DNA of 64,000 nt from Desulfosediminicola ganghwensis (lineage in GTDB: Bacteria > Desulfobacterota > Desulfobulbia > Desulfobulbales > Desulfocapsaceae), in the NCBI RefSeq assembly GCF_005116675.2, contig NZ_CP050699.1, positions 4,335,001-4,399,000 of the forward strand. Reading direction: 5' to 3'. The notes beneath the pieces are model-generated. The model was given only the letters and a program-made list of their open reading frames with translations. It had not been told where the DNA came from and did no database searches. The translations under genes were made by a program, and so were the position numbers. Every line of letters starts with the position of its first letter. Within the stretch, counting starts at the first letter, position 1. This document shows positions 41,303-42,951 of this stretch, piece after piece.

Positions 41303-42526
41303 CTACTTAACTCCCCCGGTGTTTCCACAACCACAGCCGCAACTCTGATGGGAAGTGGCATTGTCGTCCTTTCCCTCATTGCCGCCTGCTGCCGGGAATT
41401 GTGCAACAAAATGCGTACCTGACTCTTTTTTTGAAAAAACTTTCCTGCCCCATGTATAAAGAGGCTTTATGGAAATCGCCAGCAGGATAAAAACCGCAGC
41501 AAGTTTAATCGGCACAGGGATAATCTCCGCCGCTTCACCTATCACCGCCTGGGGAGATATCCCCGCCCTGAGATATATCTGATCCACGATGAGTCCGAAA
41601 ACAACCGCTGAACCTGCCAGAACCCCAAGATATCTTAAGGTACTTTTTTTACCCAATATCTTAAACAATACCGACATTGAAGTGACGTTAGTTGCCGGCC
41701 CTACAAGTAAAAAGACCAGTGCCGCTCCGGGACTCACTCCCTTCAGGATCAAGGCTGCCGCCACCGGGGTAGATGCTGTTGCACAGATATACAAGGGAAT
41801 GCCGATCACCAACATAATCAGCATGGAGCCAAGCCCGCCACCGAGGAAGTTTACCATGAGCGCGTCCGGTATCATTACCGTAATAACCGCCGCTATAGCC
41901 AAACCGACATAGAACCAAAGCGCGATGTCTCCCCATACATCGGTCACCGCATATCGAATTCCTGCACTGAGCTTATTGAGAAACGGTACCCGGTCAGCTG
42001 CTGCAACGTGTTCCTTATGCTCCGCTGCCACAGTTGCTCCGGCTGCTTTGGCCATCGGAGGAGCCACAGGTTTGGGAGATGGTTGCTGATTGTCCCAGTT
42101 GAGAAAATTCTCAAGGAAACCTGCCACTATTGCGCTAACACTTGCAGCAATCGGCCTCACCACTGTCATAATCGGATCAAGTAGCGCATAGGTCACGGCG
42201 ATGGAATCAACACCTGATTCCGGTGTTGAGATAAGGAAGGCTGTCGTCGCACCCTTGTTCGCTCCCTGCTTCTGTAACGATGCTGCCGCCGGCAGCACAC
42301 CACACGATCAGAGCGGCAGGGGAACACCAAAGAGCGCAGCCTTGACAACTGACCCATAGCGACCTCTGCCGAGGTGATGGGCGATCATCTCCGGATTGAG
42401 AAAAACCTTTAGAACTCCTGCGATAAGAATACCGAACAGGATGTAAACCGATGAATCAAGCAGGATATGCCAAACTTCCATGGCGATATCCAACGGCAAC
42501 GACACTATTTTTTCTGATATAGACAT
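41303..42526 (-). CDS. SO_0444-family metal permease, probable selenoprotein (Sec73 at UGA)
   Basis: Read through one in-frame TGA (42310-42308), this is a single 407-residue membrane protein of the SO_0444 Cu/Zn-efflux permease family (DUF318/ArsP-like). The first 72 residues end FGVPLPL. Next come the TGA, then SCGVLPAAASLQKQGANKGA and the remaining helices, ending with a Cys-rich tail (SCGCGCG). Family members have PLPLCSCGV at this place, so the TGA replaces the first Cys of the metal-binding CSCG motif. The frame is otherwise perfect. A 7-bp hairpin 17 nt after the TGA fits a bacterial SECIS. It shares an operon with a CadC-like metal sensor. A nonsense mutation is the alternative. Confidence 0.8.
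42281..42297 (-). promoter_or_regulatory. Candidate bacterial SECIS hairpin
   Basis: On the minus strand TGCTGCC pairs perfectly with GGCAGCA around the loop GGC. There are 17 nt between the TGA and the loop, and the loop begins with G. Both agree with the known bacterial SECIS pattern (loop 16-37 nt downstream, a G among its first two bases). The sequence also encodes the conserved residues VLPAAA, so coincidence is possible. Confidence 0.6.
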
Positions 42527-42597: not shown

Positions 42598-42951
42598 CTA
42601 CTTCTCTCTCAAATGCTCTAAAGCGTATTCGATCAGCATCATGATATGACCGTCAATCAGGCTGTAGTACAGGGTTGTGCCCTCCCTTCTGTTGGCGACC
42701 AGTTTCATGGTACGCAGCAGACGCAGTTGATGGCTTACCGCCGACTCGGAAATTTCAAGCAGAGCCGCCAGGTCGCAGACGCACATTTCCTGGCCGGATA
42801 GCGCATATAAAATCCGCAGCCTGCTCGGATCGGCAAAAGCTTTGAAGAGTTGGCTGAGTCCTTCAATTTCGATCGATGCCAGGGCTGCATCACGAGCTGC
42901 TTTCACTTTATCCTGGTGTATCACCCTGGCCCCGCAAAGATCCTCCACCAT
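42598..42951 (-). CDS. ArsR/SmtB-family metal sensor, CadC-like
   Basis: The 117-residue repressor has a winged-helix fold with the recognition region EISESAVSHQLRLLR. Cys6 near the N terminus and C57-x-C59 (CVCD) match the CadC site that senses Cd, Pb or Zn. Asp100, His102 and His113 in the last helix could form a second, zinc-type site. It is 72 nt upstream of the permease on the same strand and probably releases its operator when metal binds. GAGGGGAT precedes the start. Confidence 0.9.
   Translation of the reverse strand: MVEDLCGARVIHQDKVKAARDAALASIEIEGLSQLFKAFADPSRLRILYALSGQEMCVCDLAALLEISESAVSHQLRLLRTMKLVANRREGTTLYYSLIDGHIMMLIEYALEHLREK

Follow-up and report, generated by a model that had tools for sequence, protein, structure and literature searches.

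The window, a stretch of 64,000 nucleotides corresponding to positions 4335001–4399000 of the 5.65 Mb single-contig genome of Desulfosediminicola ganghwensis, carries on its minus strand a gene for a membrane transporter of the SO_0444 family, in which selenocysteine (Sec) is predicted at residue 73. The minus-strand frame from 42526 to 41303 comprises 407 residues and is interrupted by a single in-frame stop, a TGA at 42310–42308, around which the codons translate as P-L-P-L-TGA-S-C-G-V-L-P-A-A. The read-through protein matches the profile NF033936 (SO_0444 family Cu/Zn efflux transporter) with 406 bits over profile positions 1–349 of 351, the curated cut-off being 300 bits, and it also matches Pfam ArsP_1. 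The first-pass annotation had joined two minus-strand frames across this TGA into one complete family protein, and the near-full profile match bears this out. Both family motifs, C-S-C-G and I-C-A-T-A-S-T, are present, the first of them in the form U-S-C-G.

Several features of the gene, all on the minus strand, deserve mention. The U73-S74-C75-G76 motif (42299–42310) lies where, according to a structural model, a helix starts after a broken segment, at a predicted hairpin tip, while the second re-entrant motif, GIPLYICATAST, holds the invariant Cys248 (codon at 41783–41785). Between them lies a variable central loop of low model confidence (residues about 147–181; 41984–42088), which in relatives from the Desulfuromonadia is the site of a second candidate Sec (GCG-U). 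At the C-terminus, a C-G-C-G-C stretch (Cys396, 398 and 400; 41327–41341), not shared by every relative, is a possible metal-binding tail. Upstream by 71 bp and on the same strand, a gene at 42598–42951 encodes, as judged by profile matches, an ArsR/SmtB-family metalloregulator with a C-V-C motif and is a probable operon partner. A similar regulator gene was found upstream at 36 of 45 loci with the TGA form and at 89 of 126 loci overall; the transporter gene is probably under the control of this neighbouring ArsR-type repressor.

The TGA is conserved well beyond the window. In each of the 4 sampled genomes of the genus the gene contains one TGA, always at codon 73. Homologues were collected from a family sample (93 genomes, 72 with the gene) and from a draw of 395 genomes across the phylum (85 with the gene); among the resulting 130 loci, a set that counts a few Cys loci twice, codon 73 is TGA in 47, TGC in 43 and TGT in 40, with no other codon. 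The position is therefore Cys wherever it is not TGA, as had been proposed when the TGA was placed at the first Cys of C-S-C-G. The TGA loci comprise 36 from the family and 11 from elsewhere in the phylum, and two more (L225, L243) came from named genomes. The sequence before and after the TGA evolves like a coding region, with differences of 0.61–0.65 at third codon positions versus 0.18–0.24 at second positions, which indicates coding constraint beyond the TGA. The states at position 73 follow the tree: a FastTree phylogeny of 191 proteins needs 13 Sec/Cys changes to account for them, compared with 39–47 when labels are shuffled. Second TGAs close to the C-terminus of several relatives were also considered as Sec codons and were rejected as ordinary stops.

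Shortly after the TGA lies a putative bacterial SECIS hairpin, TGCTGCC-GGC-GGCAGCA (42281–42297, minus strand), with a 7-bp stem and a GGC loop; the 45 nt that contain it fold with −16.3 kcal/mol. The first-pass annotation had described such a hairpin 17 nt past the TGA, a distance that holds for the start of the loop, the stem itself starting at 10 nt. A GGC-loop hairpin at 17 nt fits the published bacterial SECIS model (PMC13188914). Since the same bases also encode V-L-P-A-A-A, the hairpin was tested against Cys homologues, and since the LPAAA codons are GC-rich, folding energy alone is a weak test, and its place was taken by positional tests and by comparison with synonymous recodings. At least 6 of the 7 pairs are kept in 41 of 47 TGA forms versus 12 of 83 Cys forms (Fisher p = 1e-16, ignoring relatedness), and where the peptide VLPAA is identical the hairpin is kept in 39/40 TGA forms versus 11/64 Cys forms. 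In a bacterial SECIS scan, which the first-pass annotation had recommended, the real sequence outscored its synonymous recodings at p ≤ 0.05 for 91% of the TGA forms but for 5% of the Cys forms, in a set that holds a few duplicates. Changes on both sides of the stem occur in 3 of the 7 pairs (e.g. GTTGCC/GGCAAC and TACTGCC/GGCAGTA), and none of 500 shuffles reached the covariation score. Distant TGA forms carry other hairpins, with the loop CGTGTC at +23 (L136, L243), AGTT or TGTA at +20 (L143–L145) or GGTC at +27 (L139). As shapes and distances differ in this way, the Sec73 site seems to have arisen or been re-shaped several times independently.

The genome has much of the machinery needed for Sec insertion, including a tRNA-Sec (75 bits, anticodon TCA), SelB (384.7 bits) and two selD genes (L053, G000:C1:3466679-3467602; L054, G000:C1:4914234-4915163). 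Each selD carries an in-frame TGA of its own, so that both SelD proteins are probably selenoproteins as well. For SelA, searches of this genome gave no match, and the place where selA would be expected reads N. A TPR-type gene follows selA in two sister genomes, G003 and G001, of which G003 also has an rRNA operon upstream of selA; in the window's genome the same TPR-type gene is present and abuts 7.5 kb of N (G000:C1:3922501-3930000, L171 4002-11501), beyond which a 5S rRNA is found, and G002 is masked likewise (L172 3502-11001). Because the N stretch covers the place expected from the sister genomes, selA is most likely masked and its true loss from the genome was rejected; the missing match is then most likely a masking effect and no evidence against Sec. 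A genome devoid of Sec machinery, which the first-pass annotation had raised as an objection, is thus excluded as regards tRNA-Sec, SelB and SelD, the place of selA being masked.

Across the family, SelB scores above its cut-off in 77 of 93 genomes, and tRNA-Sec is likewise found in 77/93. The machinery is therefore nearly universal there, and Sec and Cys forms cannot be told apart by whether it is present. Outside the family, all 15 tested genomes with the TGA form have tRNA-Sec. Some metagenome-assembled genomes (MAGs) with the TGA form are without one or more Sec genes in the assembly; G064, a 94% complete MAG with the TGA-form gene at a contig end, gave no match to SelA, SelB or tRNA-Sec, which may reflect either an assembly gap or lost machinery. 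A second, weaker tRNA-Sec-like gene (54–62 bits, above the cut-off) was observed at G001:C12:152437, G006:C149:51970, G045:C461:995, G053:C22:310627 and G074:C158:64796, in G084–G086 and in others, and is possibly a second type of tRNA-Sec.

Taken from sequence, the conserved TGA73, a hairpin specific to TGA forms and the presence of tRNA-Sec, SelB and SelD argue that Sec is inserted at residue 73 of this transporter, to which we assign a probability of about 0.9. In the proposed mechanism, tRNA-Sec and SelB would recode UGA73 as Sec, directed by the SECIS hairpin inside the LPAAA codons. The selenoprotein reading of the first-pass annotation is accordingly supported, and so are its family, Sec position and SECIS. 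A nonsense mutation or a read error in a Cys gene would need a single base change from TGC or TGT, and most homologues do have Cys at this place; yet 47 homologues, whose genomes were sequenced independently, share this TGA, their reading frames are unbroken and under constraint before and after it, and it is accompanied by a hairpin that Cys forms lack. Read error and decay in relatives, both raised at first pass, are thereby excluded, and the probability of a pseudogene or artefact is practically negligible. It is also extremely unlikely that UGA simply terminates and that the halves are separate proteins, even though a mechanical list of open reading frames gives one of 72 aa and another of 331 aa starting at the GTG at 42298. 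The predicted re-entrant segment would then be severed at an invariant Cys position, homologues with Cys run through uninterrupted, and there would be no reason for the SECIS signal to persist.

Near-cognate read-through or a change of the genetic code could instead place Cys or Trp at UGA, which is reassigned in some bacteria, and with Cys the motif would likewise be complete. Against this, several TGA73 genes (L122, L136, L143–L145) also end in a TGA stop, so that recoding must depend on context, and SECIS, tRNA-Sec and SelB are all present; we consider this reading very unlikely. As far as sequence can tell, the Sec73 form is both real and widespread.

Regarding novelty, the first-pass annotation had proposed a new selenoprotein, and this claim fails for the Sec73 form since a 2026 review already lists it: its table has a row for the SO_0444 family Cu/Zn efflux transporter, NF033936, with the motif UxC and the entry WP_014809615.1, marked as "GenBank annotated" (PMC13188914). 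The catalogued protein is of the same family, with the same U-x-C motif and one Sec. The catalogue gives a single row without analysis, whereas SECIS conservation, phylogenetic spread, Sec/Cys exchange and genomic context are described here. What is new, to the extent that this could be checked, is the SECIS and phylogenetic evidence for Sec73, together with the Sec site in the central loop. Among related systems, the efflux transporter SaoE (NF040736) belongs to a related permease family, for which the window protein scores 167.5 bits, below the cut-off of 325; the 2026 review counts other Sao proteins among the selenoproteins (PMC13188914). The YeeE/YedE thiosulfate transporter selenoprotein (GUxSG, PMC13188914) is also a membrane transporter with a predicted Sec in a conserved motif, but it is of another family (PF04143) and has another substrate. 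A literature search for a Sec form of ArsP, SaoE or a Desulfuromonas permease returned nothing relevant.

A further comparison is SO_0444 of Shewanella oneidensis, which is of the same family by name and which the organism needs in order to grow when stressed by Zn or Cu, mutants being sensitive (PMC3219624). Its neighbour SO_0443 is ZntR-like, whereas the neighbour of the window gene is an ArsR. SO_0444 itself is presumably a Cys form. In Nitratiruptor, Cd and Cu strongly raise the expression of another relative (PMC10092412). By homology, the transporter in the window probably exports toxic metals.

Position 73 (Cys or Sec), Cys75 and Cys248 are invariant across 47 diverse aligned members. 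An AlphaFold2 model of the protein (mean pLDDT 83.9) places positions 73 and 248 at helix breaks in two similar halves. Foldseek of the model against the PDB gave no match at E ≤ 0.001. In a structural comparison the best 46 matches were almost all elevator-type transporters, from the DASS (INDY, NaS1, Pho90), CNT, TRAP and AbgT groups, with Z from 12.7 to 7.5 and the next at 5.1; the top values extend over about 290 residues (Pho90/INDY/CNT), although helical proteins can match by chance near such a Z. The model thus leans towards an elevator-like fold. It is fairly probable that Sec73 is a metal ligand: in a two-repeat elevator-like exporter, two re-entrant segments would carry Sec73, Cys75 and Cys248 at their tips, and these residues would form a soft-metal site. 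Compared with a thiolate, a selenolate would bind soft metals (Cu+, Cd2+, Hg2+, Zn2+) tighter or exchange them faster, and such a site would suit sulfidic, anaerobic sulfate reducers with selenium to spare.

In selenoproteins, motifs of the type U-x-C or U-x-x-C often have a redox role. Sec could accordingly be inserted for redox sensing or protection from oxidation, for instance through a Sec73–Cys75 selenenylsulfide gating transport, and not for metal binding; U73-S-C75 fits such a motif, with Cys or Sec in every aligned sequence at column 73 and Cys throughout at column 75. We find this role rather doubtful, since the motif lies within a membrane transporter of a metal-resistance family and beside a metalloregulator, and a third invariant Cys stands in the opposing repeat.

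A second, probably independent Sec site occurs in the same transporter family. Five loci of the phylum draw have a TGA in the central loop, four of them with Cys at position 73 (L138, L140, L141, L142) and one with TGA at both sites (L139). A scan of named genomes added L175, L176, L177, L186, L197 and L215 and found L173 and L192 again; these are mostly Desulfuromonadales, including Geothermobacter hydrogeniphilus HR-1. The loop TGA is preceded by G-C-G in every case but L139, and a relative, L191, has G-C-G-C at this site. A hairpin follows in register 18–19 nt past the TGA, with the loop GTT, GTG, GTC or AGTTC/AGTTG. Among 9 distinct sequences, changes on both sides occur in 5 of 7 pairs, the covariation score was reached by 0 of 500 shuffles, and 92% of cells are paired versus 46–60% in slid controls. 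tRNA-Sec was found in all five phylum-draw genomes with this TGA (G399, G317, G359, G218, G163).

The U-S-C-G site occurs mainly in Desulfobulbales, with several SECIS designs, and the GCG-U site in Desulfuromonadia such as Geothermobacter; G163 has both. It is likely that one transporter family gained Sec at two separate sites, the U-S-C-G motif as the presumed transport site and GCG-U in the central metal-binding loop. If this is true, it would point to a preference for selenolates as ligands of soft metals in this exporter. Within the literature searched, the central-loop site appears undescribed, as the 2026 catalogue gives this family one Sec with the motif U-x-C (PMC13188914).

Because gene callers cut the protein at UGA, a metal-resistance gene of many sulfate reducers is easily misannotated. 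At an invariant, presumed ligand position Sec and Cys are exchanged naturally; together with the second Sec site and the existence of cultured hosts, this makes possible a direct test of what selenium contributes to metal transport. The cultured Sec-bearing hosts include Desulfoprunum benzoelyticum DSM 28570 and Desulfobulbus sp. Tol-SR.
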